A DNA stretch of 64,000 bases from the NCBI GenBank assembly GCA_003194525.1, contig NBIV01000202.1, positions 62,001 through 126,000 on the forward strand, in the 5' to 3' direction. The translations under genes were made by a program, and so were the position numbers. The notes beneath the pieces were generated by a model. It saw only the letters and a program-made list of their open reading frames with translations, was not told the origin of the DNA and made no database searches. This DNA comes from Gracilariopsis chorda. Lineage: Eukaryota; Rhodophyta; Florideophyceae; Gracilariales; Gracilariaceae. This document shows positions 3,434 through 51,200 of this stretch, piece by piece. Numbering within the stretch: the stretch's first letter is position 1; each line of letters starts with the position of its first letter.

Positions 3434-6400
3434 CTACTCGTCTATCGAGACATTCAACAGCTCGTCCTCCGGAAACGCGCCTCGTTCCTCTCGCAAGAAC
3501 GGCTTCATCCCGTGTTCAAACATCTTCAAGTTGCTCTTCACCGCATTCCCAATATCGTGCACAAAGCGTTCAACAGGCACGTCCGATACGTCCACTCCAA
3601 ACGGATTGGCCAATTCCTCCGACCATTTCTCAATTCCCACAATCCCGAACGCAATGAACGGCGTCCACAGAACCGTCAACCACCCGCTCGACTCCACCAA
3701 TCCCAGCGGCAATAACAGCAGCCAGATCACCAGGAAGATCCTCAAATGTTGAACGTATCCGTAAGGCATGGGAATGCTTACAATTTCCCTCAGATCCACA
3801 CATACTTTCCGCACTTCCAGCATGTACCAGAATATAAACCAGTGTTCGTGATTCCCAGCGTGTGGCTTCTCCTTCATATGCGCGCTCCATCGATCGCCTT
3901 CCATTAGGTAGAAGTGGAGCACGTCCATGCAGTACTCACTACGATCATGAGCCTTTAGCATTTTCTCGCAATCCTCCTTGCTGAGAACATGTCTCAAATG
4001 CTCTCCACAATCTTCATTCCGCATTTGCCCCATCAGCGCAATAGGAAGTGCTGCTAAGTGCGCCGCAATCCGCTGTAGATCGTTCCTATGCCAATCTCCC
4101 TGCTGATAACTCTCAAAGATCCGGTTTGAAATCAAATGCAATCTCCCACTCAACTGCGTCAACAGTCGAATCCCATCGGTATACCGTCCATGACTCTCAT
4201 ACAGCCGAAAGCCTAGTAGCAGGAACAACGCGAATCCAATGTACTCTTTCACAGAGTCGTTCACCGCGATTCGCGAACAGAACCAATTTGTGCATTCCAC
4301 CTCCACTTCGTCATCAAATGGAAACTCTTTCGACACCGCCCACGCTGCCAGAACGCACAGTGCTGACCATCCAGCTACCCCGATCGTTTCTACCAACGAA
4401 AACACATTCATGGCCAGTTTTGTGTTGTCCAACAACTTGCGACAGAATGTTTTTCTTATCCTCTTCTTCTTGATACCACACTTACGGCTTTCGTTCCAGA
4501 ACGGTACGATCGGCGATTCATGTACAAGTAGTTCTGGGTGCGGTTTGATGTGTTTCTGAACAAACAATAAGTCAGAAACTATCGAATCAGCCATTGCATC
4601 AAGATCTAAGTCGTTCAGATCCGTTCCAAAGGGAAACTGCAGTTCCCTTGCAATCGCGTGCATGCTGCCAGTCACAGCGAAGGCAGAGAAAGTTGTTAGA
4701 TTTCGTTTGTCCTCTTTTTCCTCGCTTCGGAGCTAAAGCGACTTACCCTAGTACCCCGTATGCAATAACCGGAACCCATAATATCGTAAACCATCCTGTT
4801 GAGTGTACAAGTAGAATACTCATGTATTGTTAGCATAATCATCATCAAGTAACGTGAATTGACAAGGTGTACAGTCCTGCGTCTACTCTTACCTGAATGC
4901 TCAGCCAAGGCGAATGGCAAAATCAGAAACCATAGACCAAGGAAAGTGTTTAGCAGTGTCTGGAAACCGGGTGCAATTTCAAACGTCCGCAAGAACATGG
5001 ATTCTCGAATCATTTTCTCCATATGATGAAGGAGAAACTTAACCATTGACACTCGTCTACCGTAGTAGAACGGCTTGTGCAACCTGTTTGAATAATTCGT
5101 CACGCTGTACAAATACGAGCGCAGCACATCAACACAATGAGTCACCATACTATCTGCACATTGCAGCCGGCCTAAGTCTTTGTACGATAATAAACCTTTC
5201 ACTTCACGGATATCACGAGAGTTGCGCAGTTCACTCTTTAGAACCAGTGGAATGGCAGCCAAGTGAGCAATAATTCGGCGGTGATCGCCTTCGTGGAAGG
5301 TCCCTTCAGGAAAAAGCGTTTGAAACTGCACTGCCAGTCCATGGCAATAGGAACGAAGCCGGGAGCCCCACACTCCTCCAGCGGCGAGGTATCTCACAAA
5401 CGCTGCCCGCACGAAAAACCCGAGAAGCATGAACGCTTCGTTAAGAGAAAGAGGCCATGGCACCGACCACGCAAGGTTATACACGATCTAACAATGTCAG
5501 TGGAAAAGCCTCAACATCTCAGGCAAATAATGTCACGTACCTGCGAACGATAAGTATGTTGCAACCGTAGTATTCACACTAAAGTTGGACTGCCACCATC
5601 GCGCCACTTGAGACTTATCTCTGGCGAGATACGAGATAAGCGTTGCAACAGTTGTCCATGCAGTGATATACACTAACACCCACCATGGAACAGAGCGAAT
5701 AAGATGGGCGAGCAGAGATGGTTTCATTTTCGGAGCCTTCGGACCAGCAAAGCACAAGGGATCACCATCACCAAAGGATACAGATCTTTCAAGCTTGTCA
5801 AAATGAGCGAGGGTATACTCATGACTCGGAGTTTTCTTCTTGAGAATGGTACCAAGCTGTGGGACATTCTCACAGCCTGCAAACTGGGTATGCACATCAA
5901 GACCCCAATTAATGCTTGTCACACCTTGAATTATAGAGCTGGACGCATCCAAGCACATCTTGTCCAGTGGAATGTCAATTGCGTCATTTCCGTATGGGTC
6001 AACTAGCTTTTCTGCAATTTCTTCGAGCCCTAGGATGCCGTATGATATTAAAGGAGCCCAAAGAATAGTGAAGAAACCAGTATTTGGGGTCATCGCAAAC
6101 GGAAGAAGGGCAAGCCACAAAACTGTAAACAGATGCTGATGTCGAGTATAGCTGGATATCACGGGGAAAGCCTTGACACCTAATGCTCTAGAAATCGATT
6201 CGCGAACCTTTGCCATCCGAATAAGCAGGGTTTCCGTGAACGTTCCAGCAGTCCGAAACTTCGGTATATCAGGATGGCCCTCACGTGCAACGGAATCTTG
6301 CAGTGTAAAGTATGCTTCAACAGTTTGAACAAGGTGTTCGAGCGGAACGGGACTTGTCTCGAAACTTTTCCGGTCTTCTGGTGAAAGCAACCCTTCTTTA

Positions 6401-9307
6401 TCTGCGGGATCATCCCGGACGATTCCGAGCAGTCGATCACGAAAACAAAGCGGAATCTGAACTAGATGTGCCACTATTCTCTCTTTGTCGTGCTTATGAA
6501 AGAAATTGTCCGTATAGTTCTGCACTGCTTCTATGGCAACATTCCGCAGATTCATTTGGATGTTGAAGATGAGCATTGCGCCTTCTTCATATCTTCCGAT
6601 TGCATCTGAAGCGCGAAAACTGAGAATCATGAACAGAGCGAAACCAATATTGGCCAACACATGTGTTTCCACGTCCACCGGGCTGCACCAAGCATTACAG
6701 GTGTTGCGTTTGTCTTCCGACCACAAGTACGAAAACCCGTATGATATTCCGGACGCCGCAACAGACCATATGGTTACCAAGGCCATACGTCTGAAAGATA
6801 CAGATGGAAGATTGTTAACTAAATTCTTCAAAGATCCGGCAAGAGTTGGATTCACCTCTTCGTCCAGAGAACGCCTCAACATTCTTCTCCAATTAAGAAA
6901 AGACCGTTTTGGTTTTCTATGGCAGCTGTTCCCAATAAAATCTTGTTCTCCGTCCAACGGCAAAGCGTTGAAAGCTTGACGTGTGTAATCAGATGGATAC
7001 ACGAAAGCAGGCGTGCCCTGTAGAGAGCTAGAATAAATATCATGAATGGATTGCTTGACTTCGCTGCAGAACATGTCCAGCGGTATGTCTTCCTTGTCAA
7101 AGCCAAAGGGGTCTGCCAGGTTGCTACCAATGCCGATCAACCGTATCACGGAGTAGCTAATTGGAATGATATACAAGAACGAGAGAAAACCAGCGAACTG
7201 TATCAGTGACATTGGTAGAAGTGCCAGCCAGAAGAACGTAAACAATTTCAGATGAATTGTGTACGACTTTGGGATAGGATGCTTGTGGATCGATATACAC
7301 TCTCCCATGCTGTGGTCAAGACCCCGCAACACAAGTATCGTGGCATACTTAGAGCTTTTGAAAGGACAGAATGGAACTTGAACTGTGTCTGCATGAACCC
7401 GCTCAATACTGTTAATGTACCCGAATATTACGTCGATTGCATGCCCATAGAAGTCTTCTGACTCATCGAACGCTCTAACATCTTGATGTGATAGGATGGC
7501 GTGCAACTCAGTTGTATCGCGGCTCTCTCGCAATTCCAACTTTGCGGCGTAACAGAGAGCAACAAGGTGTGATAAAAGGCGTTCGCGATCCCCATCATGC
7601 CACGTACCCTGCTTGCACGCCATGGAAAAGAAGAAAGCGAGCTGTTCAACGCCTGTCTTGAACTTGCTTTGCCATAGTTGTAACGCACTCCAATACCGAT
7701 TGTATGCCACATTTAGCCAGAAGCCAAGCACTAGAAAGATCCCAAGACTGACGTAGGCGGTAATCGACGAATCAAGTGGTATGTATATGCACCACCATCT
7801 GCAGCTCTCAGCATTACTAGTGTTCCGAACTTCATAGGTGAGGCACACAAGAAAAGTTGTCCACAGTACAACTCCGACCAGGGAGAAGAAGACCTTCTTG
7901 CTCGAACATCCAAAAACGATCAAGCTGCAGCAATCCCGGAGTTTAGAGGATGGGCTTTCTTTCCCAAGTTTCTCCATCGGTTTCACAAGCCAATCCGGAG
8001 CATCATGCACTTTCTTGACAACACTCTTTAGGTCCTGTTTTTCTCTGGAGAATGCATCGAGGAGATTAAGTGCTGTATCAGCTGCCAGACTGTTTAGCTT
8101 CACATCGTGGATATCAAAGCCAAAAGGCTCACTTAACGCCTGCCCTATAGTAAACAGCATTCCGATTCCGTAAGAGATTAGAACCGCCCACAAAATAGTA
8201 AACCTGGGATGCGAAAATGAAATAACATGGGGTCAGTACTATAATTACATCAAATACTTCACGTACATAAGAAGGTTATACAAGCAATGCTTCTCTTACG
8301 TTGCACAGCCTATGAACAAGAGCATCAGGAGGACGAGTATCACGACGAGGACAGGACATTCTTGATACGTACCATCCACTGTTCCTCACAAGTGCTAGAG
8401 GGATAAAGAGCATCCAAATGTAAAGCAAGATACGAAGATGAGTGACATAGCCGATTGAAGGCAAAGAATTGGCTATCTTCACAATACTGCCAGTATGGGC
8501 GTCAGCGTAGTCCAGATAATGATGCAGGGTGAATCGTGTTCCATCTCCTGCCGGCGTCTTTTCGGCTGCAACATGTTTGAAAGAATGATTTGCATCCTCT
8601 TCTGCCGCACTAAAATATGCTCGCACGACACTCAGGCAGTAGTGATGCATAGAAGACGCCCTCAAAATGTCATGAATATCTAAGTTGTGAAGGATACCTT
8701 GCAGTTGTTCATTCTCTCGCTCGCCTCGGATACTCATCTTAAGTACGATGGGATATGCAATAACATGTGCAGCGATGCGTTCCAAGTCACCATCATGCCA
8801 TGTTCCATCAGGATAACCCTGGCGCAAATGGAGAATAACCTGGCGAAGATACCGGGCCATGTGCTCCCAATCAACCTGAACTTCCCAGTAGCGGTTGCTA
8901 GCCTCTCGAATAAAGAATCCAAGAAGAACGAATAGTGCCCATCCCACTCCATATGATATAGAAGGAGAAATGACAAGCCTAGAGTCCCAGAATTCAACAG
9001 AGAACCAGTTCACGTCGCTTCGATTAAGCTTATAGGCCAGAAAAGTGATCAAAGTACTCCAGACCAACTGAAACCCAATTATGTCATATGGTATGGTTTG
9101 CATGAGTGCCACAAGTGTGGAGTAGTCCGTCGCATCTGGCTCAGGAGGTCCAGAACCAAGCCGACCACTTGCTTTCACATTTTGCAGACGAAGAGCAACA
9201 GCACGATGTTGGAAGTCGGAATAAGGGGTAGTTTGATGTTCTGCCTCAACATTGTCCCCATGTAACGCAGGGATTTCCGTTGAACTCTCAGCTTCCTTTG
9301 ACATCAT
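3434..9307 (-). CDS. Five-domain (pentad) bestrophin-like anion channel, 5 exons, 1806 aa
   Basis: Exons: 9307-8373, 8203-5541, 5435-4893, 4795-4747 and 4664-3434. The four introns (169, 105, 97 and 82 bp) have GT donors (GTACGT twice, GTAAGA, GTAAGT) and AG acceptors; joining them keeps one frame of 1806 codons plus stop. The protein holds five bestrophin-like (RFP-TM/UPF0187) domains at about residues 65-370, 400-705, 765-1075, 1140-1440 and 1465-1790. Each shows the pore-helix pattern ending in LGF or LSF, the ER..AHL helix after a HxxD turn, the PLxLxxxSGWFTILW transmembrane segment and the signature DPFGxDxxDIPLD. Bestrophins assemble as pentamers of such domains, so one chain could form a whole channel of about 20 helices. 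A lone domain is about 300-350 residues. The N-terminal 60 residues carry no obvious signal peptide, so the membrane is unknown. Chloride or bicarbonate transport is inferred from the family. Confidence 0.9.
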
Positions 9308-15617: not shown

Positions 15618-15973
15618 TGTGACGTTGCGGGGCTGAAAGGGAATCAGGTCGAACGACCAAGGGGCAGGCAAACACAGAGTTGGTGCTGCACCGGCCGCGG
15701 GGACTTGAGGTCAGTTCTGTTGTTCCCTCTCTGGCCTGACCGGGCTCACCTTTATTAGACCTACTCACTACCGCCGCCGGCCGCCCGGCGGTACCATGTC
15801 CTCCAATCACTGGACGCCATTGGTCCAAGTTGGCCGAACGGCTTACAGATGGGCGGGCTTCCACTACCGGAGAAACCTACCGCGCCATCCCGCTCTCGTC
15901 GTCCCGTGTCTGCCAAGCTCCCTCGACAGACCACAGCGACGGACGCAGGCGAGTAGAACTACTCAGCGTCACA
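15618..15973 (-). repeat. Gypsy 3' LTR
   Basis: 356 bp, terminal inverted repeat TGTGACG/CGTCACA, nearly identical to the copy at 20,868-21,223. Confidence 0.93.
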
Positions 15974-16011
15974 GGGCCCCATGCCTTGGCCGCCCCGCGC
16001 GCGTTAAGGCA

Positions 16012-19000
16012 TCATTCAGATCCCAGCGAGCACTCACGAAGAGCACGACGCTTGAGACCCCGCTGTCCAGCGGTGTGGAGGTAGTCTTCCAGCAATCCTG
16101 GCAAGTCCTCAAACACTTGACCCAACGGTTCCCAAGTAAAGTCTATCTCATCGGGCAGACCTGCCCACTCCACGAGCACTTCCAGCTGACGATCTTTCTC
16201 ACGAATGCCACGAAGCTGTTCAGCTGTCTCGTACTTCGTCTCCGAAGCTCGAGCAGCCTCCAGCAGCTTTGGGGTGAACACCCTACCATCCATATCTGCA
16301 CGATAGGAGTGGAGGCGTCTAGCGTGCACAACTTCACGCTTGTCTTTGACCAGGTCCTGTACCTCATACACCCAGTCAGATCTTACTGCTGTAACTCTGC
16401 GAGGACCCCTCCAGGTGAACTGCAACTTGTGCCCACCCTTTGTCACCGTTCGGACGAGCACGAAGTCCCCGACGCTAAAGTCGGCCTCCTTGATGTTCGT
16501 CCGGCGGTTGTGCTTCTGTACCTTCCGCGCACGCGAAGCCGACGTCAGTCCTTCCACGTCGCGATGAACATCGCACAGGGCACCTTGCAACTTTCCGATG
16601 TCCACAAGTTGCCTGGCCCGCACTTCGTCCTCCGTCCGAGCACTGCTGTATGCCGGGACCGGCAGCGCACGAAGAAGCGGGCGAACGGGGAGATGGCCCG
16701 TGAAGACCTCCAGGGGTGTTCGATAGACTTCGGAGTTCTCCGGGTCGCGTAACCCGAGCCGCTTGAGCGGAGCGTGATTGAGCACACTCTGCACGCACTC
16801 CGTTACCGCCGGCCAGTCCTGGGGCGCCAACTTCCATTCACTCAACAAGGCTTTGCACGCACGAAGCACTTCGCTGCACACCCTTTCAACGGTACCGTTG
16901 GCCCAGGGCGAGTAGGCCGTGGTAAAGTGATGGTGCACACGCACTTCGGCCGTCAACTCGGCAATCAGCTGGTTCTTGAAATGAGAACCCTGATCGCTGA
17001 CGAGCCAAGTCATACTTCCAAACGTCCCGAACCATGTACCCAGGGCGTCGGCTGCAGCCTCGCTTGTACAAGCTGTTGTAGGCCAGAGCCACACAAACGA
17101 CGAAAGGTCGTCTCGAATGAGCAGCAAGTACTTCTTGTCATCCCGTCCGGGCCCCATGAACAGATAGTCCATGTGCACAACTTCATTCGGCCTCAACCCA
17201 TGGAGAGCCGATCCGAGCGGACGGGGAATCAAATCGCCACTACGGGTGACGATGCAATGGAGGCAGCCTCGAACGAGGGTCTCGACGTCAGCACCCATCG
17301 TCGGCCACCACCATTCCTCAGCCAGCACACTCCTCGTAGCGTCGCGCCCGCGATGACCTAAGGTCCCGCAGTGGGAGACCACGAGGATCTTGAGCTGTAG
17401 CTCCTTGTCCTCCTGCGGCACCCAAACGCGACCGCGCTTCTTCCAGACTCCTTCTTGCTCATCGAGCTTCAGGCCGTCCGGCCGAGTTGCGGCTTCTTGC
17501 GATTTCTTGATCGAGTCCATGTCTGGCCAGACGAAATCATCCGGAGATGGGATGAGCTGCTCCGAGTCTTGCAACAGCATACTGCTGACGGCGGAGCGTT
17601 CGCTCCTATCTCTGCGATACCCGCGCGTCCACCGCGTGAGCATGTCTGCGCAGACGTTGTCCTTCCCATCGATATGCTCGATCACGTAAGCAAAGCGGGA
17701 CAAGAACAGTGCCCACCGTTGCACTTTCGATACCACGTGGCGACCAAGAGCTGGTTCCAGCGCCAACGGCGCAAAGACAAACAGCAAATTGCGATGGTCC
17801 GTGAACACGTGCGTACGCACATGACTCTGGAACAAATAATCCATCTTCTCTAACGTCTGGAAAATGGCAAATCCCTCCTTCTCGAAGGTTGTCCAACCTA
17901 TCTCAGCTCCCTTGAACGAGGAACCCAGAAATCCGAGGGGCTCGTGCCGTTGCTCCTCGAAGGGCAGTCGGAGCTGCACAGCATCCGTTTGCGTGACCAC
18001 GCCAGACCAGTACATTTCAGAAGCATCTGTAAAGACGCAAAGCACTTTCTCCGGGTCCGGATGTGAGAGAGTAACAGCATTGCGGAGGCTTTCTTGCATA
18101 TCTGCAAACGCTTGGTCGTGTGTAGGGCCCCAAGAAAGGCTTCGCAGAGAGATACGGCGAATAGATCTATTCGTTCGGCGACCCGATTGAGCGTACGCTC
18201 GTTCCAAAACTTCCACGAGGGGGGCTATGCGAGCGGCAAAGTTAGGGATAGCATTAGCCATCCACCGGCAACAATAAATAAACTGCGCCAATTCTTCCGC
18301 GGTTTGCGGTGCGTCCATGTCTTTGAGACCGTCGAGACGCGCCGGGTCCATTCGATATCCATCCTTTGATACGATGCGACCGCACCACTTGAGCTCACGC
18401 TCGAACAGCTTGCACTTCCGAGCGTGAAGGAAGAGGTTCCGCTCCCTGCAGATTGCCAAAAACTCCTGGAGCTTGCTCAGCAACGTTGACTCGTCTTTCG
18501 CATGAATACTGAAGTCGTCCAACCACGCCTTGACCGAATCACGCAACGAAGCGAACAGTGGCTCCACTGAACTCTGAAAGTACGACGTCGCATTGGCCAG
18601 TCCTGGCAACACCCTCTTCGACACCACGACTCCACGCGGTGTGACGATGCCACATGCCGAGTACGAATCGGGGTGCAAAGGCAACTGCCAATAGCCCGAT
18701 ACGAAGTCCAAACTTGCGAAACATGTGCTTCCAGCAAAGTCGGAGACCTCCGAGTCCAGGTGAGGCATAGGCCACGCCTCCTTGATTGTTGCGGCGTTCA
18801 CCGGCCGCAAGTCAACAGCCATGCGGTACCGCGCTTTCGACCCATGCTTGGGGACCAGCAGCGGTGCCGCTTGCCACGCAGCTGAGGGCATGTCTTCCAC
18901 GAAGCCCATCTCTCGCAGCGCGTCCACGTACTTGTCCAAGAACAGGCGCTGGTCCGGCGAGTAGCGTCGTGCCTTCACTCTAACCGACCGCTTGCCTGGT

Positions 19001-20823
19001 TCCAGGCGTACCCTCATCGGCTCGACGTCAGCTGGTGGGGATTTTCCCAGCCGGAGCCGAAAAACCGAACGGTACTCCTTCATCATCGTGGAGAGCCTCC
19101 CCACTCCTGTGGGGCTCAGGCCATTTGATTGCGCTCGTTCGAGCATCTTGTCGAGCGCTGCGTCGAGAGCCTCAGGGGGATCATCGCCGAGATCGACGTA
19201 CACGTCGCTATCTTCCAGGCGGTCGCCTCCTCCTTCTCCGCCCTCTCGATGAAAAGCACTGCCCCAATCGAACCCTCGTTCGCGGAGCATGCTCCCTATT
19301 GAGGTGGCACCACCCGCACTGGGGTCGTCGTTCTGTCCCCTGGCCTGCAACAGGCCAGGTACATCGACGCTACCACCCAGGCGGTCACGGGCAGCTGCCA
19401 GCATGACACGGTTGTCCAACCCCAAAGCAGCCAACAAATGTCGGCCGATGTAAGCATGAGCCAGCTCATCATCACTGACTAGCCAACGCACCCGACGCAG
19501 CAGGAGCTTCTCTCCATGCCTTATCCTCAACTCGATATCCGATTGTGTCGATCGACTACAGCGAATCGGGGGGACGGACGTCGCCGCGTTGCCAAACAGC
19601 ATGACTTCCTTGAGCTTCTCAACCCTTACATTCGGATCCGCCTTCATGATAGCCTTGAGCAAGGCAGATGAGATCACGTTCGTGTCCGAGCCTTGATCGG
19701 CGAGCAAGGTGCTCTCCACAGCGCCGTTGCAAAACGAAGCGCTGAACAGCGATGAATTGTCGTCCCGGTCATCGGCGCCCGAGATCGCACCGATCTTCTT
19801 ACCCGACGAACTCCCACCTTCACTCTTGCGGCGCTTGTCGAAGTACTCTGCGAGATACTTCGTCTTCTCTTCATCCGAGGCCAGGTTGCAGTTACGGATG
19901 TAGTGCCGCTTACCACAGCGCGGCAGCAGACACAACGGCAGTTCTGCCGGGCGCTTCCGGCTGCCCTGCTGGGACCCACCGGTAGCCGCTTTCTCACCGT
20001 CACTCTGTCCTGATCTCGATTTGTCCTCTTTTTCGCGCCCGGGCGTGCGATTCCGCCCCCGGCGCTTCTTGCGGTGGGTGCTGGCACTGCCAGACCCCCC
20101 ACCGTACACATCATCTCGATCGGAGTCGGACTGCTCAGCCCTGTAGCCCTTGGCCGACTCGTGTCGATCGATGACCTTGGCTTCCTCCGCGAGTTCTCGC
20201 ATGAACTTGCCGAAGTCCTTCTCCAACTCGTCCTTGCGCAGTCGGAGCGTTAGCATCATGCGGGTCCGCAGATCGGCATGAGTGATGCGTTTCATGATAT
20301 GCCGAACGGCTAACTTCGGTTGCCGCTTGACAAAATCGTCGTAGCCACAGTGACGGAGCTTCTCATTGTACTGTAAGCAAAGGCGCCACACCTGCCGCTG
20401 GAGGTTAGCGGTCTTGTCGGCGTTCGCCAGCTTCACATCTTGCAGCTCTCTCTCGATACGGGCCAGATCGTAGTCGGCGGGATCCACGCGTGCGCGCTCT
20501 TCGACGCACTGCCGCAGGTCCTCCTCGGTGATATCCTCCACTGTGTCGGCCGACACCCAGTTGGCTAACACCAGCAGCTCCAAGATTGACTTGTCGATCG
20601 AGTTGCGGTAGCTTGTGAGCGGAATCTGAACAGATTGCTCTTCGTTCTTCTCGGCGACACGACGCTCATAGATCTCCCTCGCTTCCTTGAACTGGACGAA
20701 GTTCGCGGTCGCGATGTCTTCTAGCCGAGGTGCCTCGACTGTCTCAACGATGGTCTGCTTGACGGTAGCGTTGTCATCGCGCGTTCGCGCACCAGACCCT
20801 GCTTGTCTTGTCGCAGTTGGCAT
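16012..20823 (-). CDS. Ty3/gypsy Gag-Pol polyprotein with C-terminal chromodomain
   Basis: One frame of 1603 residues. Gag occupies about residues 1-330 with a zinc-knuckle-like CLLPRCGKRHYIRNC at 298-312. The protease follows (ADQGSDTNVI, about 375). Reverse transcriptase covers about 650-830 with MAVDLRPVN and the WLDDFSI active site. RNase H lies at about 930-1050 (CVFTDASE, VFTDHRNLL). The integrase has the HCGTLGHRG and CLHC zinc motif, HMDYLF, SDQGSHFKN and NGTVERV. The last 80 residues are a chromodomain (LEVLVEWAGLPDEIDFTWEP), typical of chromoviruses, which are thought to target chromatin through it. Gag and Pol are in one frame, a known arrangement in chromoviruses. Confidence 0.95.
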   Translation of the reverse strand: MPTATRQAGSGARTRDDNATVKQTIVETVEAPRLEDIATANFVQFKEAREIYERRVAEKNEEQSVQIPLTSYRNSIDKSILELLVLANWVSADTVEDITEEDLRQCVEERARVDPADYDLARIERELQDVKLANADKTANLQRQVWRLCLQYNEKLRHCGYDDFVKRQPKLAVRHIMKRITHADLRTRMMLTLRLRKDELEKDFGKFMRELAEEAKVIDRHESAKGYRAEQSDSDRDDVYGGGSGSASTHRKKRRGRNRTPGREKEDKSRSGQSDGEKAATGGSQQGSRKRPAELPLCLLPRCGKRHYIRNCNLASDEEKTKYLAEYFDKRRKSEGGSSSGKKIGAISGADDRDDNSSLFSASFCNGAVESTLLADQGSDTNVISSALLKAIMKADPNVRVEKLKEVMLFGNAATSVPPIRCSRSTQSDIELRIRHGEKLLLRRVRWLVSDDELAHAYIGRHLLAALGLDNRVMLAAARDRLGGSVDVPGLLQARGQNDDPSAGGATSIGSMLRERGFDWGSAFHREGGEGGGDRLEDSDVYVDLGDDPPEALDAALDKMLERAQSNGLSPTGVGRLSTMMKEYRSVFRLRLGKSPPADVEPMRVRLEPGKRSVRVKARRYSPDQRLFLDKYVDALREMGFVEDMPSAAWQAAPLLVPKHGSKARYRMAVDLRPVNAATIKEAWPMPHLDSEVSDFAGSTCFASLDFVSGYWQLPLHPDSYSACGIVTPRGVVVSKRVLPGLANATSYFQSSVEPLFASLRDSVKAWLDDFSIHAKDESTLLSKLQEFLAICRERNLFLHARKCKLFERELKWCGRIVSKDGYRMDPARLDGLKDMDAPQTAEELAQFIYCCRWMANAIPNFAARIAPLVEVLERAYAQSGRRTNRSIRRISLRSLSWGPTHDQAFADMQESLRNAVTLSHPDPEKVLCVFTDASEMYWSGVVTQTDAVQLRLPFEEQRHEPLGFLGSSFKGAEIGWTTFEKEGFAIFQTLEKMDYLFQSHVRTHVFTDHRNLLFVFAPLALEPALGRHVVSKVQRWALFLSRFAYVIEHIDGKDNVCADMLTRWTRGYRRDRSERSAVSSMLLQDSEQLIPSPDDFVWPDMDSIKKSQEAATRPDGLKLDEQEGVWKKRGRVWVPQEDKELQLKILVVSHCGTLGHRGRDATRSVLAEEWWWPTMGADVETLVRGCLHCIVTRSGDLIPRPLGSALHGLRPNEVVHMDYLFMGPGRDDKKYLLLIRDDLSSFVWLWPTTACTSEAAADALGTWFGTFGSMTWLVSDQGSHFKNQLIAELTAEVRVHHHFTTAYSPWANGTVERVCSEVLRACKALLSEWKLAPQDWPAVTECVQSVLNHAPLKRLGLRDPENSEVYRTPLEVFTGHLPVRPLLRALPVPAYSSARTEDEVRARQLVDIGKLQGALCDVHRDVEGLTSASRARKVQKHNRRTNIKEADFSVGDFVLVRTVTKGGHKLQFTWRGPRRVTAVRSDWVYEVQDLVKDKREVVHARRLHSYRADMDGRVFTPKLLEAARASETKYETAEQLRGIREKDRQLEVLVEWAGLPDEIDFTWEPLGQVFEDLPGLLEDYLHTAGQRGLKRRALRECSLGSE

Positions 20824-20867
20824 GATTTCCAGTCAACTCCAATACCCTCGCGCGATGGAGTATATAC

Positions 20868-21223
20868 TGTGACGTTGCGGGGCTGAAAGGGAATCAGGTC
20901 GAACGACCAAGGGGCAGGCAAACACAGAGTTGGTGCTGCACCGGCCGCGGGGACTTGAGGTCAGTTCTGTTGTTCCCTCTCTGACCTGACCGGGCTCACC
21001 TTTATTAGACCTACTCACTACCGCCGCCGGCCGCCCGGCGGTACCATGTCCTCCAATCACTGGACGCCATTGGTCCAAGTTGGCCGAACGGCTTACAGAT
21101 GGGCGGGCTTCCACTACCGGAGAAACCTACCGCGCCATCCCGCTCTCGTCGTCCCGTGTCTGCCAAGCTCCCTCGACAGACCACAGCGACGGACGCAGGC
21201 GAGTAGAACTACTCAGCGTCACA
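20868..21223 (-). repeat. Gypsy 5' LTR
   Basis: 356 bp, nearly identical to the copy at 15,618-15,973; followed on the minus strand by a leader of about 45 bp before the gag start. Confidence 0.93.
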
Positions 21224-38758: not shown

Positions 38759-39583
38759 TGTTGATGCTACCACATGGTCGAGTGCTTGGTAGTCCTGGGA
38801 CATCATGGTGTAGCACTTGGAAACAAAGTTTCATATAACGGAGGGCTGTTTTTGAGAGCTGCTTTGCAACAGCGCATATGCATGTGTTCTCAAACCCAAC
38901 CTGAAACGGTCATATGATTGGCTACTGCATATAATCATATGCAATGCATTGGTTACAAGTGTTGTGCATCCTATGGATCGTGGGCATGGAACTGGCCACT
39001 TGGCATAAGGTGAATGGGCATGGTACTTAGGAATATGTGTGGCTACACCTGGTTTTACAGATACATGCAGGTGTTGCATATGTGCAGTTGTGCGAGTAAG
39101 CACGTGCCATGCACGCAACAAACTTAGAGTATGTACATGGATGCGGTGGCATGTGAATTTTTGCTTTTTCATCTCATGATGATGCAAGTAAGTGTGTACA
39201 GAGTGCTGTCACATGCTGGCACATTTTTGGCATGAGTGCTGTACTTGGTGCGCATTGTTGGCTGTTTGTTTTACTTGGTCTGCGTTGTTGTAATGTAGTG
39301 TTATGTTGTTAAGCATGGTTGTACTTAGCTGTAATCAGTGCGTGCAACCTTTATTGTGTTATGTTGGATTGTGATTGGTAGTATTGGGTGTCCCCACTTA
39401 GTGGTGTAGGGTTTTCTTTTAGTGGTAGTGCGAAGCAGAGGTTCTATATAAGACTCTGAAGTCGCAGTACCAAGTAAACTCGCCCCAAAGCCTGGGAACC
39501 TTCACTCTTTATCTTCTTTCTTTCTTTCCTTTTCATTTCTGTCGAAGCCCAACATCATCTATCAACATCATTTCATATCAACA
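38759..39583 (+). repeat. Copia LTR (825 bp)
   Basis: Starts TGTTGATGCTACC and ends CATATCAACA. Conserved module at 38,871-38,943 (CATATG at 38,874 and 38,935, ATTGG at 38,916) and CTATATAAG near 39,444. Confidence 0.8.
38871..38943 (+). promoter_or_regulatory. Conserved LTR upstream module
   Basis: GCGCATATGC, then CAAACCCAAC, then GATTGGCTACTGCA and a second CATATG about 61 bp after the first. ATTGG is an inverted CCAAT box. The same arrangement occurs in the other copia LTRs here although their flanks are diverged, suggesting it is a promoter or enhancer element. Confidence 0.6.
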
Positions 39584-40438
39584 TGTGGTATGGCACTGGA
39601 AAAGTCTTCCATCGTACCTCCCGACAGTTGTGATATGGACACCTATGCCGATAGTGGTGCTACATCACACTTTTTCCATTCGGTGTCTGCGTTTATTCCC
39701 GAGTCTTTGCACAACGTAGAAACTCGAACCATCATGCTTGCCGGCAATACTGAAGTATGTACAACGCAGCGGGGTGACATAGTATTGCCATTTGAGTACG
39801 CAAACCTACGATTGACTGATGTCCTGTTCGTTCCAGAACTGGAATACAATTTGGTGTCCATAGGATGCTTGGCGGACAAGGGCATTGAATCTTTCTTTCG
39901 CTCAAGTGAAGTTCGTCTCACCTTGGGCAATGGGTTTGTAGTCGGCAGTGGCCACCGCGATCGACGCTCGGGGTTGTACACCTTACCCGATCCGATATTG
40001 CAAGGTACCAACCCAACCCCATTCTCGTCACCAACTAGTGGAGATCATTGCATGAAGACATCGGAGTCCATTATTGCTAATCTATGGCATCGGCGACTTG
40101 CCCACATCAATGCGCGCGACCTCCAGTCAGTTTACAAACATGCTGAAGGGGTGCCGAAGATGTCAGGAATGGAGGAGATATGCCGCCCGTGTATGCTTGG
40201 TAAGGCGCATAAACTTCCGTTCCCTGGCAAATACGACCGAGCATCAGCCGTAGGTGAGGTGGTACACTCCGATATACTAGGACCCCTTGTACCTTCATTC
40301 CCACAAAGGTTTCAATATGCCTCTACCTTCCTTGACGAGCATTCAAGGTATGCACTCTTAGGCTTCATGACCCATAAAAGTGAAATTGCTGTTGTATTCG
40401 ATGCAATTGAGCACAAGTTCCAGCAGCTTGGATGAGTG
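39584..40438 (+). mobile_element. Copia array: leading partial body (protease and first part of integrase)
   Basis: Starts inside the protease region (TYADSGATSHFF) and runs through the LWHRRLAHINARDLQS zinc-motif region into the integrase core start, then meets the first array LTR. It matches the same segment of the following units with only a few substitutions. Confidence 0.85.
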
Positions 40439-41695
40439 TGTTGGAAAAGTACCTGTTCTGTCACTGAAAACCAAATGTGCCGGGGAGCATGGGCTGTGTT
40501 GGAGGGTGCCGCTGCAAAAGCGCATATGCGTCGCTGTGCAAATTCAACGTGAATCTGGATTGTGATTGACTACTGCAAATACGCATATGCACTGTAGTGC
40601 GTACAAGTGGTAGTACACAAGTGGGTTAGATTGGCACACCCACGTGTCCAGCTAGTACAGTGCGCACAGTGTACAGGGCACGTACCTATGATAGATGGAC
40701 ACACCGCACATGTGGTACAGAAGTGGTACCTTGGTGAGGAGTATGGGCACTGGTATCAGGTTTACCGGTACAACAAGTGGAAAATGACGTGTCAGTTGAT
40801 GCAGTTACACGTACAAGTGATGTGGTGAATTACTGTGACGTGCATGGATGAATTTGGATGCGTTGGCATGCGTTGGCTATTGAAAGTTGGTAAGGAAGTT
40901 GAGGGGATGGAAGGGAAGTTCGCCAGCTCTAGCTTGGATTTACTTGGAGGTCCTTCAGGCATATCTTATATACCACTCTAAACTCGAATTGCGCGGGAAC
41001 ACCAACTACAAGTAAAACCTAAACCACTAAGCAGGGACACTCAATACTACCAATCATCATCTAACATGACATAGCCAGCTCAGCACAACCTCATTACATC
41101 AACGCACACCAACGCACTAACGTTCCGTAATAGTTACGTGCATACACATGACCATGACAAGGCACAAATTCACGACTCCAACACACGCCAGCACATGCCA
41201 ACACATCACGGCAAGTCAACACATCACGGTAAGTCGGCACGTAACCTGTGGTGTTAGCGCCATGTCATCAAGTGGCAATGCATCAAGTGGCAATGCACAC
41301 AACACCCACGTCATCAATATACCCGTGCATGTGTAAACCTGTTGACAGTGCATGCGCACCTTACCATTGTACCAACCACTGCTGTACCACTTGTACCAGG
41401 TGTCAACCACTTCACCAGTATCCCCTGCACACAACGTACACTGTGACTACTGTAATAGCTGGACACGTGGGTGTGTCCAACCGATCCAGTTATGCCATAC
41501 CACTTGTACGCACCACGTTGCATATGTACATGTGCAGTACCCAATCAGAAGCCAGTTTCACGTTGGGTTCGCGCACACGCGCATATGCGCTTTTGCAGAG
41601 GTACCCTCCAAAACATCCCATGCTCCCCGGAACATTTGGTTTTCAGTGACAGCATAGGTACTACTGCCAATACCTAACCCGCGTGCGTTGCAACA
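40439..41695 (+). repeat. Composite LTR with head-to-head inverted arms (1,257 bp)
   Basis: Begins TGTTGGAAAAG and ends GCGTTGCAACA beside the primer-binding site. Its first 420 bp or so are a forward LTR start. The rest, to about 41,673, is largely an LTR in the opposite orientation, with its TATA-like string near 40,970 read on the minus strand. The outer 230 bp of the two arms match as inverted repeats at roughly 80%. Identical composites begin at 44,346, 48,253 and 52,160. Confidence 0.75.
40521..40590 (+). promoter_or_regulatory. Conserved LTR upstream module (array LTR, forward arm)
   Basis: CATATG at 40,523 and 40,583 with AACGTGAA and GTGATTGACTACTGCA between them. A second, inverted copy lies in the opposite arm near 41,500-41,600. 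Confidence 0.6.
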
Positions 41696-41709
41696 GGTTA
41701 TGGGCCCAG
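41696..41709 (+). promoter_or_regulatory. Primer-binding site, initiator tRNA-Met half type
   Basis: GGTTATGGGCCCAG directly after the LTR end CAACA. Exact complement of the initiator tRNA-Met anticodon arm; repeated at 45,603, 49,510 and 53,417. Confidence 0.85.
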
Positions 41710-44345
41710 AGCGTCGACTGTTTGCAGACGTTGCGCTCTACTAATATCTTTTTGGATTTTACGAAGACTGGTTTTTCTTTCGCGCAGGTACGCGTTGCGT
41801 TGCAAGCGAGCGAATCTTGTGGAAGTCGAGTGGCAGTGGTGAAAGTAGGCAAAGCGTTCAGAGACACCTTCTCTGGTAAGCCGACCTGCGCCTGTTCCGA
41901 TCCCTGCTTCTTTGCTTCAGTGCATAAGGAAGACCGCGCTATTTTCCGGCAAGCGACTAGAAGGGGTTAACTGGTGAAAGCTTATTGCGTCAGCTACTAG
42001 CCTCCCTTGGACGTCTCGTACGGATTGTAAAGCCCCTCCCTCTGAAGTGCGCAGAGCAGTATTGGTCGCAGAAACCGCATCTCACCTGAAGAGAGTTACC
42101 AGGGACCAGAGGATTCGGACCTCTAGGGTAGCGGGGATAGTATCTACTGCCAGTGCGCCCATCTTAAGAAGTTTTATTTGTGTCCAGGCTCGTATCAGTA
42201 CGTCCTGTGAGTATATTCCGGGCGTTGAGTACCCGAAATCCGCATGAGATCGCGTACGAGACGCGTCTCGACAAGCGTAGTAGACTTGGTTACACGGTCT
42301 CCGCTGAAGTTTTCGCTGTTGAGTGTTTGAGATTCTTCTCCACTCCAGTTTTTCTGGTTCTTTGTGTAACAGAAGCCTTGAAATACCTCTTTCGGCTTCA
42401 ATACATTGCGTGGATATCACTACATTTGGCATCTACATAGTTGCTTTTGTTGCTTTTCTTTGGTTCTAGTCCCGTAGGAACCATGTCCAACTCCGAAGTT
42501 GAAACGGAATCCACCTCTGGAATGAAAATTCCTCGTTTACATGGTAAGCGTGGTGATGATTATATTCTGTGGCGTCACCGTCTCCGTGCTGCATGCCGTA
42601 TTAATGGTGTCTGGAATGTCGCAAATCTCTCTGGGGTTCAATCTACCACATATATTTTAACTCAAGACACAACTACCGCAGGTAGTGGCACTGAAATAGC
42701 AACTCCCCGTATCATTGCGAAACCATAAAAGGCTTGTGGTATCATCATCTGTGCTCTTGGTGATGCTCCATTACGCGTAGTCATGGACGTGGATGATGAT
42801 CCTGCCCGTATGTTGCAACTCTTGGATGGACTTTATGCCTCCAATAGGACTGTATCTAGAATTGCAGTGCAGACACGATTGTTCCGAATGTCGTACAGCG
42901 GTGAGAACATGTCCAGCTATGTGGATCAATACACGGCATTCTTTGCTCAGTTAGACCGTATGGGCAAGGATGCTGCTATACCGGAGTCTCACAAGGCACC
43001 TATGCTACTTGCTTCCATTGGTCCGAACATTTCGTTGGATTCCACGGCTGCTGCACTACGTACCAAGGACATATCGGAACTGACTTGGGACTATGTGGCA
43101 ACCACTTTGATCGATGAGTACAATGCTCGTCTGGTCAGTTCTTCTAGTTCTGGACGTACGCGAAGTCGAAAGAAGAACAGAAGCAAAGGTTCTGGTGGTT
43201 CACGTGTGTCCCAAAACTCCAGTCACACTCAGTTCAGGGATGGAAGTGACTCTGATGATCGGCCAAGTACAGCTGGTAGAGCATATGTGGTGTCCAGTAA
43301 CCGGACTTATCACTGTGAATTTTGTGATCGTGATGGTAACACAAAGGACAGATGCCATGTGAATCCCGATAACCCGGATAATCACTTACCCAAAAGCATC
43401 CTGGACAAGCTTAACATCAAATGGAAGAGCAAATCTGGGGCGTCCAAGTCTTGCAATAAGCCGGCTGGTAGTTCATCAAAGATTGAGGTATGTGGTATGG
43501 CACTGGAAAAGTCTTCCATCGTACCTCCCGACAGTTGTGATATGGACACCTATGCCGATAGTGGTGCTACATCACACTTTTTCCATTCGGTGTCTGCGTT
43601 TATTCCCGAGTCTTTGCACAACGTAGAAACTTGAACCATCATGTTTGCCGACAACACTGAAGTATGTACAACGCAGCGGGGTGACATAGTATTGCCATTT
43701 GAGTACGCAAACCTACGATTGACTGATGTCCTGTTCGTTCCAGAACTAGAATACAGTTTGGTGTCCATAGGATGCTTGGCGGACAAGGGCATTGAATCTT
43801 TCTTTCGCTCAACTGAAGTTCGTCTCACCTTGGACAATGGTTTTGTAGTCGGCAGTGGCCATCGCGATCGACGCTCGGTGTTGTACACCTTACCCGATCC
43901 GATATTGCAAGGTACCAACCCAACCCCATTCTCGTCACCAACTAGTGGAGATCATTGCATGAAGACATCGGAGTCCATTATTGCTAATCTATGGCATCGG
44001 CGACTTGCCCACATCAATGCGCGCGACCTCCAGTCAGTTTACAAACATGCTGAAGGGGTGCCGAAGATGTCAGGAATGGAGGAGATATGCCGCCCGTGTA
44101 TGCTTGGTAAGGCGCATAAACTTCCGTTCCCTGGCAAATACGACCGAGCATCAGCCGTAGGTGAGGTGGTACACTCCGATATACTAGGACCCCTTGTACC
44201 TTCATTCCCACAAAGGTTTCAATATGCCTCTACCTTCCTTGACGAGCATTCAAGGTATGCACTCTTAGGCTTCATGACCCATAAAAGTGAAATTGCTGTT
44301 GTATTCGATGCAATTGAGCACAAGTTCCAGCAGCTTGGATGAGTG

Positions 44346-47300
44346 TGTTGGAAAAGTACCTGTTCTGTCACTGAAAACCAAATGTGCCGGGGAGCATGGG
44401 CTGTGTTGGAGGGTGCCGCTGCAAAAGCGCATATGCGTCGCTGTGCAAATTCAACGTGAATCTGGATTGTGATTGACTACTGCAAATACGCATATGCACT
44501 GTAGTGCGTACAAGTGGTAGTACACAAGTGGGTTAGATTGGCACACCCACGTGTCCAGCTAGTACAGTGCGCACAGTGTACAGGGCACGTACCTATGATA
44601 GATGGACACACCGCACATGTGGTACAGAAGTGGTACCTTGGTGAGGAGTATGGGCACTGGTATCAGGTTTACCGGTACAACAAGTGGAAAATGACGTGTC
44701 AGTTGATGCAGTTACACGTACAAGTGATGTGGTGAATTACTGTGACGTGCATGGATGAATTTGGATGCGTTGGCATGCGTTGGCTATTGAAAGTTGGTAA
44801 GGAAGTTGAGGGGATGGAAGGGAAGTTCGCCAGCTCTAGCTTGGATTTACTTGGAGGTCCTTCAGGCATATCTTATATACCACTCTAAACTCGAATTGCG
44901 CGGGAACACCAACTACAAGTAAAACCTAAACCACTAAGCAGGGACACTCAATACTACCAATCATCATCTAACATGACATAGCCAGCTCAGCACAACCTCA
45001 TTACATCAACGCACACCAACGCACTAACGTTCCGTAATAGTTACGTGCATACACATGACCATGACAAGGCACAAATTCACGACTCCAACACACGCCAGCA
45101 CATGCCAACACATCACGGCAAGTCAACACATCACGGTAAGTCGGCACGTAACCTGTGGTGTTAGCGCCATGTCATCAAGTGGCAATGCATCAAGTGGCAA
45201 TGCACACAACACCCACGTCATCAATATACCCGTGCATGTGTAAACCTGTTGACAGTGCATGCGCACCTTACCATTGTACCAACCACTGCTGTACCACTTG
45301 TACCAGGTGTCAACCACTTCACCAGTATCCCCTGCACACAACGTACACTGTGACTACTGTAATAGCTGGACACGTGGGTGTGTCCAACCGATCCAGTTAT
45401 GCCATACCACTTGTACGCACCACGTTGCATATGTACATGTGCAGTACCCAATCAGAAGCCAGTTTCACGTTGGGTTCGCGCACACGCGCATATGCGCTTT
45501 TGCAGAGGTACCCTCCAAAACATCCCATGCTCCCCGGAACATTTGGTTTTCAGTGACAGCATAGGTACTACTGCCAATACCTAACCCGCGTGCGTTGCAA
45601 CAGGTTATGGGCCCAGAGCGTCGACTGTTTGCAGACGTTGCGCTCTACTAATATCTTTTTGGATTTTACGAAGACTGGTTTTTCTTTCGCGCAGGTACGC
45701 GTTGCGTTGCAAGCGAGCGAATCTTGTGGAAGTCGAGTGGCAGTGGTGAAAGTAGGCAAAGCGTTCAGAGACACCTTCTCTGGTAAGCCGACCTGCGCCT
45801 GTTCCGATCCCTGCTTCTTTGCTTCAGTGCATAAGGAAGACCGCGCTATTTTCCGGCAAGCGACTAGAAGGGGTTAACTGGTGAAAGCTTATTGCGTCAG
45901 CTACTAGCCTCCCTTGGACGTCTCGTACGGATTGTAAAGCCCCTCCCTCTGAAGTGCGCAGAGCAGTATTGGTCGCAGAAACCGCATCTCACCTGAAGAG
46001 AGTTACCAGGGACCAGAGGATTCGGACCTCTAGGGTAGCGGGGATAGTATCTACTGCCAGTGCGCCCATCTTAAGAAGTTTTATTTGTGTCCAGGCTCGT
46101 ATCAGTACGTCCTGTGAGTATATTCCGGGCGTTGAGTACCCGAAATCCGCATGAGATCGCGTACGAGACGCGTCTCGACAAGCGTAGTAGACTTGGTTAC
46201 ACGGTCTCCGCTGAAGTTTTCGCTGTTGAGTGTTTGAGATTCTTCTCCACTCCAGTTTTTCTGGTTCTTTGTGTAACAGAAGCCTTGAAATACCTCTTTC
46301 GGCTTCAATACATTGCGTGGATATCACTACATTTGGCATCTACATAGTTGCTTTTGTTGCTTTTCTTTGGTTCTAGTCCCGTAGGAACCATGTCCAACTC
46401 CGAAGTTGAAACGGAATCCACCTCTGGAATGAAAATTCCTCGTTTACATGGTAAGCGTGGTGATGATTATATTCTGTGGCGTCACCGTCTCCGTGCTGCA
46501 TGCCGTATTAATGGTGTCTGGAATGTCGCAAATCTCTCTGGGGTTCAATCTACCACATATATTTTAACTCAAGACACAACTACCGCAGGTAGTGGCACTG
46601 AAATAGCAACTCCCCGTATCATTGCGAAACCATAAAAGGCTTGTGGTATCATCATCTGTGCTCTTGGTGATGCTCCATTACGCGTAGTCATGGACGTGGA
46701 TGATGATCCTGCCCGTATGTTGCAACTCTTGGATGGACTTTATGCCTCCAATAGGACTGTATCTAGAATTGCAGTGCAGACACGATTGTTCCGAATGTCG
46801 TACAGCGGTGAGAACATGTCCAGCTATGTGGATCAATACACGGCATTCTTTGCTCAGTTAGACCGTATGGGCAAGGATGCTGCTATACCGGAGTCTCACA
46901 AGGCACCTATGCTACTTGCTTCCATTGGTCCGAACATTTCGTTGGATTCCACGGCTGCTGCACTACGTACCAAGGACATATCGGAACTGACTTGGGACTA
47001 TGTGGCAACCACTTTGATCGATGAGTACAATGCTCGTCTGGTCAGTTCTTCTAGTTCTGGACGTACGCGAAGTCGAAAGAAGAACAGAAGCAAAGGTTCT
47101 GGTGGTTCACGTGTGTCCCAAAACTCCAGTCACACTCAGTTCAGGGATGGAAGTGACTCTGATGATCGGCCAAGTACAGCTGGTAGAGCATATGTGGTGT
47201 CCAGTAACCGGACTTATCACTGTGAATTTTGTGATCGTGATGGTAACACAAAGGACAGATGCCATGTGAATCCCGATAACCCGGATAATCACTTACCCAA

Positions 47301-48252
47301 AAGCATCCTGGACAAGCTTAACATCAAATGGAAGAGCAAATCTGGGGCGTCCAAGTCTTGCAATAAGCCGGCTGGTAGTTCATCAAAGATTGAGGTATGT
47401 GGTATGGCACTGGAAAAGTCTTCCATCGTACCTCCCGACAGTTGTGATATGGACACCTATGCCGATAGTGGTGCTACATCACACTTTTTCCATTCGGTGT
47501 CTGCGTTTATTCCCGAGTCTTTGCACAACGTAGAAACTTGAACCATCATGTTTGCCGACAACACTGAAGTATGTACAACGCAGCGGGGTGACATAGTATT
47601 GCCATTTGAGTACGCAAACCTACGATTGACTGATGTCCTGTTCGTTCCAGAACTGGAATACAGTTTGGTGTCCATAGGATGCTTGGCGGACAAGGGCATT
47701 GAATCTTTCTTTCGCTCAACTGAAGTTCGTCTCACCTTGGACAATGGTTTTGTAGTCGGCAGTGGCCATCGCGATCGACGCTCGGTGTTGTACACCTTAC
47801 CCGATCCGATATTGCAAGGTACCAACCCAACCCCATTCTCGTCACCAACTAGTGGAGATCATTGCATGAAGACATCGGAGTCCATTATTGCTAATCTATG
47901 GCATCGGCGACTTGCCCACATCAATGCGCGCGACCTCCAGTCAGTTTAAAAACATGCTGAAGGGGTGCCGAAGATGTCAGGAATGGAGGAGATATGCCGC
48001 CCGTGTATGCTTGGTAAGGCGCATAAACTTCCGTTCCCTGGCAAATACGACCGAGCATCAGCCGTAGGTGAGGTGGTACACTCCGATATACTAGGACCCC
48101 TTGTACCTTCATTCCCACAAAGGTTTCAATATGCCTCTACCTTCCTTGACGAGCATTCAAGGTATGCACTCTTAGGCTTCATGACCCATAAAAGTGAAAT
48201 TGCTGTTGTATTCGATGCAATTGAGCACAAGTTCCAGCAGCTTGGATGAGTG
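44346..48252 (+). mobile_element. Tandem copia unit 2 (3,907 bp)
   Basis: Same order as unit 1, no length difference and only a few substitutions. Composite LTR 44,346-45,602, primer-binding site 45,603-45,616, gag from 46,390. Confidence 0.92.
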
Positions 48253-51200
48253 TGTTGGAAAAGTACCTGTTCTGTCACTGAAAACCAAATGTGCCGGGGA
48301 GCATGGGCTGTGTTGGAGGGTGCCGCTGCAAAAGCGCATATGCGTCGCTGTGCAAATTCAACGTGAATCTGGATTGTGATTGACTACTGCAAATACGCAT
48401 ATGCACTGTAGTGCGTACAAGTGGTAGTACACAAGTGGGTTAGATTGGCACACCCACGTGTCCAGCTAGTACAGTGCGCACAGTGTACAGGGCACGTACC
48501 TATGATAGATGGACACACCGCACATGTGGTACAGAAGTGGTACCTTGGTGAGGAGTATGGGCACTGGTATCAGGTTTACCGGTACAACAAGTGGAAAATG
48601 ACGTGTCAGTTGATGCAGTTACACGTACAAGTGATGTGGTGAATTACTGTGACGTGCATGGATGAATTTGGATGCGTTGGCATGCGTTGGCTATTGAAAG
48701 TTGGTAAGGAAGTTGAGGGGATGGAAGGGAAGTTCGCCAGCTCTAGCTTGGATTTACTTGGAGGTCCTTCAGGCATATCTTATATACCACTCTAAACTCG
48801 AATTGCGCGGGAACACCAACTACAAGTAAAACCTAAACCACTAAGCAGGGACACTCAATACTACCAATCATCATCTAACATGACATAGCCAGCTCAGCAC
48901 AACCTCATTACATCAACGCACACCAACGCACTAACGTTCCGTAATAGTTACGTGCATACACATGACCATGACAAGGCACAAATTCACGACTCCAACACAC
49001 GCCAGCACATGCCAACACATCACGGCAAGTCAACACATCACGGTAAGTCGGCACGTAACCTGTGGTGTTAGCGCCATGTCATCAAGTGGCAATGCATCAA
49101 GTGGCAATGCACACAACACCCACGTCATCAATATACCCGTGCATGTGTAAACCTGTTGACAGTGCATGCGCACCTTACCATTGTACCAACCACTGCTGTA
49201 CCACTTGTACCAGGTGTCAACCACTTCACCAGTATCCCCTGCACACAACGTACACTGTGACTACTGTAATAGCTGGACACGTGGGTGTGTCCAACCGATC
49301 CAGTTATGCCATACCACTTGTACGCACCACGTTGCATATGTACATGTGCAGTACCCAATCAGAAGCCAGTTTCACGTTGGGTTCGCGCACACGCGCATAT
49401 GCGCTTTTGCAGAGGTACCCTCCAAAACATCCCATGCTCCCCGGAACATTTGGTTTTCAGTGACAGCATAGGTACTACTGCCAATACCTAACCCGCGTGC
49501 GTTGCAACAGGTTATGGGCCCAGAGCGTCGACTGTTTGCAGACGTTGCGCTCTACTAATATCTTTTTGGATTTTACGAAGACTGGTTTTTCTTTCGCGCA
49601 GGTACGCGTTGCGTTGCAAGCGAGCGAATCTTGTGGAAGTCGAGTGGCAGTGGTGAAAGTAGGCAAAGCGTTCAGAGACACCTTCTCTGGTAAGCCGACC
49701 TGCGCCTGTTCCGATCCCTGCTTCTTTGCTTCAGTGCATAAGGAAGACCGCGCTATTTTCCGGCAAGCGACTAGAAGGGGTTAACTGGTGAAAGCTTATT
49801 GCGTCAGCTACTAGCCTCCCTTGGACGTCTCGTACGGATTGTAAAGCCCCTCCCTCTGAAGTGCGCAGAGCAGTATTGGTCGCAGAAACCGCATCTCACC
49901 TGAAGAGAGTTACCAGGGACCAGAGGATTCGGACCTCTAGGGTAGCGGGGATAGTATCTACTGCCAGTGCGCCCATCTTAAGAAGTTTTATTTGTGTCCA
50001 GGCTCGTATCAGTACGTCCTGTGAGTATATTCCGGGCGTTGAGTACCCGAAATCCGCATGAGATCGCGTACGAGACGCGTCTCGACAAGCGTAGTAGACT
50101 TGGTTACACGGTCTCCGCTGAAGTTTTCGCTGTTGAGTGTTTGAGATTCTTCTCCACTCCAGTTTTTCTGGTTCTTTGTGTAACAGAAGCCTTGAAATAC
50201 CTCTTTCGGCTTCAATACATTGCGTGGATATCACTACATTTGGCATCTACATAGTTGCTTTTGTTGCTTTTCTTTGGTTCTAGTCCCGTAGGAACCATGT
50301 CCAACTCCGAAGTTGAAACGGAATCCACCTCTGGAATGAAAATTCCTCGTTTACATGGTAAGCGTGGTGATGATTATATTCTGTGGCGTCACCGTCTCCG
50401 TGCTGCATGCCGTATTAATGGTGTCTGGAATGTCGCAAATCTCTCTGGGGTTCAATCTACCACATATATTTTAACTCAAGACACAACTACCGCAGGTAGT
50501 GGCACTGAAATAGCAACTCCCCGTATCATTGCGAAACCATAAAAGGCTTGTGGTATCATCATCTGTGCTCTTGGTGATGCTCCATTACGCGTAGTCATGG
50601 ACGTGGATGATGATCCTGCCCGTATGTTGCAACTCTTGGATGGACTTTATGCCTCCAATAGGACTGTATCTAGAATTGCAGTGCAGACACGATTGTTCCG
50701 AATGTCGTACAGCGGTGAGAACATGTCCAGCTATGTGGATCAATACACGGCATTCTTTGCTCAGTTAGACCGTATGGGCAAGGATGCTGCTATACCGGAG
50801 TCTCACAAGGCACCTATGCTACTTGCTTCCATTGGTCCGAACATTTCGTTGGATTCCACGGCTGCTGCACTACGTACCAAGGACATATCGGAACTGACTT
50901 GGGACTATGTGGCAACCACTTTGATCGATGAGTACAATGCTCGTCTGGTCAGTTCTTCTAGTTCTGGACGTACGCGAAGTCGAAAGAAGAACAGAAGCAA
51001 AGGTTCTGGTGGTTCACGTGTGTCCCAAAACTCCAGTCACACTCAGTTCAGGGATGGAAGTGACTCTGATGATCGGCCAAGTACAGCTGGTAGAGCATAT
51101 GTGGTGTCCAGTAACCGGACTTATCACTGTGAATTTTGTGATCGTGATGGTAACACAAAGGACAGATGCCATGTGAATCCCGATAACCCGGATAATCACT

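Follow-up and report, generated by a model that had tools for sequence, protein, structure and literature searches.

The window, a 64,000-nucleotide (nt) stretch of contig NBIV01000202.1 from the red alga Gracilariopsis chorda (assembly GCA_003194525.1, positions 62,001 to 126,000 of the forward strand), carries on its minus strand a gene (3434..9307) for an 1806-amino acid (aa) protein with five consecutive bestrophin-like domains. We consider it probable that this protein is a natural pseudo-pentameric bestrophin channel with covalently concatenated domains, in which one chain makes one channel whose composition and order are fixed. With somewhat less assurance we favor a fuller proposal, namely a single-chain pentameric ion channel with a closed five-sector pore and an asymmetric neck, whose single origin in red algae would have been followed by growth into a gene family.

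Five bestrophin-like domains in one spliced frame

Rebuilding the gene returned exactly the coordinates, canonical splice sites and codon count proposed in a first-pass annotation of the sequence. Five exons join into an uninterrupted frame of 1806 codons that ends in a stop, and all four introns (169, 105, 97, and 82 nt) are bounded by GT-AG. Exon 1 (8373..9307) encodes the N-terminal tail and most of the first domain (D1) and is followed by intron 1 (8204..8372), whose position is common to both paralogues described below. Exon 2 (5541..8203) contains the end of D1, the whole of D2 and D3 without interruption, and the start of D4, whose neck helix is split by intron 2 (5436..5540). D4 continues in exon 3 (4893..5435) and, after intron 3 (4796..4892), in the 49-nt exon 4 (4747..4795), which supplies the segment from SGW-FTILW onward; exon 4 and its flanking introns 3 and 4 (4665..4746) were placed by the spliced frame together with paralogue comparison. 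Exon 5 (3434..4664) encodes the D4 tail, D5, and the stop.

When the protein was cut into five pieces, each scored above the curated cut-off of 27 bits for Pfam family PF25539 (Bestrophin_2; 97.9, 122.5, 109.1, 114.6, and 126.6 bits for D1 to D5), bearing out the earlier description of five bestrophin-like domains. The eukaryote-type Bestrophin profile PF01062 had no match in the genome, where its control matched nowhere either, and left the five domains unmatched at E values up to 1. Pairwise identity among the domains is 24–29%, and the array is therefore old rather than an assembly stutter or repeat. Each domain is predicted to have the bestrophin fold of the PF25539 family, but in place of the usual homopentamer of one-domain chains there are five unlike domains in one chain. 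The window protein is thus a bestrophin relative by descent, not one of the usual architecture.

The sequence motifs that the first pass had listed are present in approximate form, and their exact strings do not hold in every domain. The ER..AHL helix motif reads ERIAAHV, ERLLSHL, ERIVAHL, RRIIAHL, and QRIAAHL from D1 to D5, and the DPFG.D..D signature EPFGFDIHD, DPFGFDKED, DPYGNDAID, FPFGTDLND, and NPFGVDVSD. The segment given as PLxLxxSGW has one more position (PLxLxxxSGW) and is exact in D1 and D5 only; its counterparts are PMSLIQFAGF in D2, PFAMTPNTGF in D3, and PFALAEHSGW in D4.

Known bestrophins are C5 (five-fold symmetric) homopentamers whose pore neck is lined by I62/I66/F70 in KpBest and by I76/F80/F84 in animal channels, the first and middle residues tuning selectivity (PMC8496536; PMC6591409). 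We mapped the neck of the window protein via an alignment with KpBest, using an inferred two-residue numbering offset. With domain limits set by our own cut around the Pfam matches, the neck residues are W123, V127, and F131 in D1 (aa 61–370; 8029..9127), L465, L469, and F473 in D2 (aa 404–715; 6994..7929), F833, M837, and F841 in D3 (aa 771–1080; 5899..6828), F1198, M1202, and F1206 in D4 (aa 1136–1445; 4520..5733), and F1541, L1545, and F1549 in D5 (aa 1471–1775; 3530..4444). The triads WVF, LLF, FMF, FMF, and FLF are hydrophobic in all five domains.

The chains of relatives keep this pattern position by position. The third neck Phe is retained in 19/20, 50/54, 53/56, 46/48, and 35/43 rows for D1 to D5, and the first residue is Trp in D1 (16/20), Leu in D2 (49/54), and Phe in D3, D4, and D5 (50/56, 45/56, and 33/43, respectively). 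A middle Phe of the animal-channel type occurs in 3 of 222 rows. The suggestion in the first-pass annotation that each wall of the pore is free to evolve separately is half right: every position has conserved residues of its own, but each is constrained rather than released.

Paralogues, relatives, and descent of the five-domain array

Single-protein searches of the G. chorda genome (91.3 Mb, 1081 contigs), among them one with D5, located the same domain order on contigs C195 (paralogue A, locus L031) and C75 (paralogue B, L032). The spliced paralogues encode 1821 and 1827 aa, and their four introns, all GT-AG, match those of the window gene in position. This recurrence of the five-domain, five-exon order on two other contigs puts the layout far beyond chance. 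Spliced paralogue A is identical letter for letter to P0001, the NCBI protein BWQ96_08484 of G. chorda. The window protein shares 62–63% identity with A and B, which are 90% identical to each other.

Between the window copy and A, the rate of nonsynonymous substitution (dN) is 0.17–0.30 across the five domains, and that of synonymous substitution (dS) reaches 2.8–2.9 in D2 and D3; in D1, D4, and D5 it lies outside the range that can be estimated. We read these values as purifying selection on every domain. For A and B, dN/dS is 0.21 overall; D4, with a dS of just 0.06, has 0.49. As dS between A and B falls from ∼0.4 in D1–D2 to below 0.2 in D3–D5, their 3′ halves may have been exchanged recently.

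Protein searches of this genome, together with a search by PF25539, also gave other bestrophin-like places. Within the stretches retrieved, those on C10 and C125 (two) have the look of single-domain genes, and those on C337, C72 (two), C318, C86, and C311 seem to be decayed pieces. In the C337 stretch (41000–50000; L033), a remnant of the five-domain type consists of the D4 tail and D5 only and has in-frame stops. Decayed D1-like pieces on C72 (L039) and C318 (L040) share a segment that is 99.96% identical over 5274 nt. A cysteine pair precedes the neck helix in D2, D3, and D5 of the window protein (CRWWC, CNAWC, and CTNWFC) and in the C10 and C125 frames; it is absent from D1 and D4.

Among database proteins, a search with the full-length protein (targets of 0.55–1.75 times the query length, ∼990–3160 aa) returned 50 relatives, all with PF25539. 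Six are named: one from G. chorda, one from Gracilaria domingensis (1859 aa, annotated as ‘Bestrophin/UPF0187’), and four from Agarophyton chilense. The remaining 44 carry the source tags lgn (42), ena (1), and eukprot (1), of which we take lgn to denote Logan assemblies of SRA data. A hidden Markov model (HMM) of the five domains of the window protein found five matches in 38 relatives, six in one (P0004, in which D5 is split), and four in 11; apart from this split D5, it detected no more than five domains in any of the 50 long relatives. All five domains cover at least 200 model positions in P0001, P0002, P0003, P0006, P0007, P0009, and P0044, as they do in the window protein and paralogue B.

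The shorter relatives seem to be pieces, cut off at exon edges or broken in frame. Of the 38 five-match chains, 30 have as their first match a D1 tail of fewer than 125 of 347 model positions that starts near the place of intron 1; in P0012 it covers 189. The four-match chains stop within D4 close to where intron 2 or 3 would lie, lack D1, or are broken in frame (P0005). Complementary pieces with an equal longest contig, as if two pieces came from one gene, favor the exon-edge explanation: P0039 (D1 to the start of D4) pairs with P0070 (D4 tail and D5) at 8883 bases, P0046 with P0071 at 6249, P0088 with P0079 at 8089, P0090 with P0052 at 10887, and P0091 with P0075 at 10264. A second search with exon 5 covered targets of ∼225–716 aa, and two- or three-domain or distant forms could escape both searches. 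It gave 36 matches, 31 of which (P0051–P0081) are pieces of the five-domain type by domain content or by best match to D5; among these P0073, a 321-aa open reading frame (ORF), could be either such a piece or a gene for one domain. The other five (P0082–P0086, 291–296 aa, E values of 2e-8 to 5e-6) are distantly related proteins with a single domain. A profile homology search, in which the 7996 candidates sharing most words were scored, produced 21 matches and only five additional proteins of the same kind.

P0005, presumably transcript-derived from the style of its name, crosses the places of junctions 1–3, and its frame breaks near exon 4. Read one base on, its tail matches the exon 4–5 junction of P0002 at 23 of 23 residues (200 shuffles of the tail reached 12 at most). 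The RNA of a relative thus appears to cover all four junctions.

We calculated a tree from 101 rows, comprising 97 domain rows from 23 chosen chains (the window protein, 21 of the 50 full-length-search relatives, and P0088 from the profile search) and four single domains; rows of fewer than 215 positions were dropped, and the others were labeled by their order in the chain. D1 to D5 (14, 22, 23, 20, and 18 rows) each form one clade, with support of 99, 100, 100, 100, and 100 in the Shimodaira–Hasegawa-like approximate likelihood ratio test, a quick method used without bootstrap. One clade per position indicates that the array formed once, before these chains diverged, with no swapping between positions. 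Mean identity across six full chains is 42–50% at the same position and 26% between different positions. The nearest outside row is a C125 gene of the same genome, and the clade that excludes it has moderate support (88, again without bootstrap). The tree program warned of long branches meeting (C10 and two remote rows) and of odd composition in two D1 rows. As judged from these sequences, the array has kept its number and order in the relatives examined.

A proposed one-chain channel and its alternatives

In the mechanism we propose, five PF25539-type protomers joined by linkers in one polypeptide would fold as five sectors of a single pseudo-C5 pore. By analogy with known bestrophins, the linkers would be cytosolic, and the ring would be closed by D5 packing against D1. 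In the window protein, 135, 164, 158, and 141 residues separate the PFG signature of each domain from the neck Phe of the following one, which we judge enough to bridge neighboring protomers. We infer the D5–D1 closure, the one-chain stoichiometry, ion conduction, and the membrane location. The likely benefit would be an obligate heteropentamer in which every wall contributes a neck residue of its own (Trp, Leu, Phe, Phe, and Phe at the first position of the window copy), an arrangement that separate subunits assembling at random could not ensure.

AlphaFold2 confidently placed two consecutive domains of the window gene (predicted template modelling score, pTM, 0.80) and three of a relative (pTM 0.85), a score that speaks for relative placement and not for a ring. 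Together with the kept number and order, the single clade per position, and the neck in every domain, these placements lend weight to the covalently linked pentamer suggested in the first pass.

Several observations weigh against the proposal. The structure predictions were made without a control fold, and the linkers include stretches with a predicted local distance difference test score (pLDDT) below 50. At the middle neck position of D4, Thr is the most frequent residue in relatives (25 of 49 rows), making the wall less hydrophobic there. P0044 from A. chilense, the most divergent full chain, has no PFG signature in D3 and carries Lys instead of Phe in the D5 neck, and not every chain need therefore work alike; the Lys is possibly a natural change of pore character. 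No transcript of the window copy was seen, and the transcript-like P0005 is frame-broken. Finally, cutting after translation may be compatible with the data.

Such cutting defines the first alternative, a polyprotein whose linkers are cleaved to release five different subunits that would go on to form a heteropentamer. The linkers are indeed poorly conserved (27–47% identity between the window copy and A and B, compared with 61–74% for the domains), and the D2–D3 spacing varies by more than 100 residues among the 15 chains measured, but such linkers would also fit a flexible tether. The structure predictions are silent on cleavage, and we regard a polyprotein as unlikely. Slightly more doubtful still is an assembly of higher order, with pore domains contributed by more than one chain or with the chain acting as a scaffold that forms no pore. 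Single-molecule counts of Chlamydomonas BST4 come in multiples of five, possibly from grouped pentamers (PMC11638005), which speaks for this idea; the limit of five domains among the 50 long relatives and the neck kept at every position are, however, hard to explain without a five-fold ring in each chain. That adjacent genes were fused by a false splice model is very improbable: the window copy lacks a cDNA (complementary DNA), but a single exon spans D2 and D3 without a break, two paralogues have the same frame and intron positions, P0007 and P0009 are single five-domain database proteins (splicing by the gene caller is not stated), and P0005 reads across junctions 1–3 and, one base on, the exon 4–5 junction. 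One chain forming one channel is the simplest account.

A comparable design is found in the four-domain Nav/Cav channels, in which ring subunits are likewise fused in one chain and each position has diverged, but these are four-fold and belong to an unrelated family; we know of no natural five-fold counterpart. Bestrhodopsins (PDB ID 7pl9, the best PDB sequence match of D5) resemble the window protein as long algal proteins with a bestrophin domain, but that domain is fused to rhodopsins, and the 7pl9 entry contains five chains. We rejected both as groups to which the window protein could belong and retain them as analogies. PMC11453091 cites Rozenberg 2022, whose title calls bestrhodopsins pentameric. 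KpBest (PDB IDs 4wd7, 6iv*, and 6jlf) consists of separate single-domain chains that form a C5 homopentamer with the neck IIF in every subunit (PMC8496536). Among plant and green-algal bestrophins (VCCN1, PDB IDs 7ek1-3, and BST4), BST4 has one domain per chain and was counted at five molecules per complex (PMC11638005).

The first pass knew of no characterized natural protein of this form, and we likewise found no description of a multi-domain bestrophin chain among the matches listed in a search of open-access full-text literature, a scope that leaves subscription papers mostly outside. Public databases name the relatives hypothetical, unnamed, or ‘Bestrophin/UPF0187’. The family is known, and its five-domain architecture appears to be undescribed. 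To fix the order of subunits, channel concatemers are usually engineered in the laboratory, and evolution seemingly did the same here for a pentamer. The protein offers a ready-made bestrophin in which each of five neck positions could be changed alone, making symmetry, gating, and selectivity testable wall by wall, and it would show a route from homomer to obligate heteromer by internal duplication.

Other features of the window

A long terminal repeat (LTR) retrotransposon, Ty3/gypsy-like by eye, occupies 15618–21167, where a 300-nt stretch recurs with 100% identity 5250 nt away; the repeat encloses a 1606-aa gag-pol-like ORF (16012–20832, minus strand). From 39583 to 55510 and beyond, a tandem array with a spacing of 3907 nt contains a 300-nt reference stretch five times (the other four copies are 98% identical), and its ORFs are copia-like by eye. 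A 1771-nt inverted repeat pairs 57511–59281 with 62230–64000 (97% complementary), and a tandem repeat with a 33-nt unit that degrades along its length spans positions 1–492.

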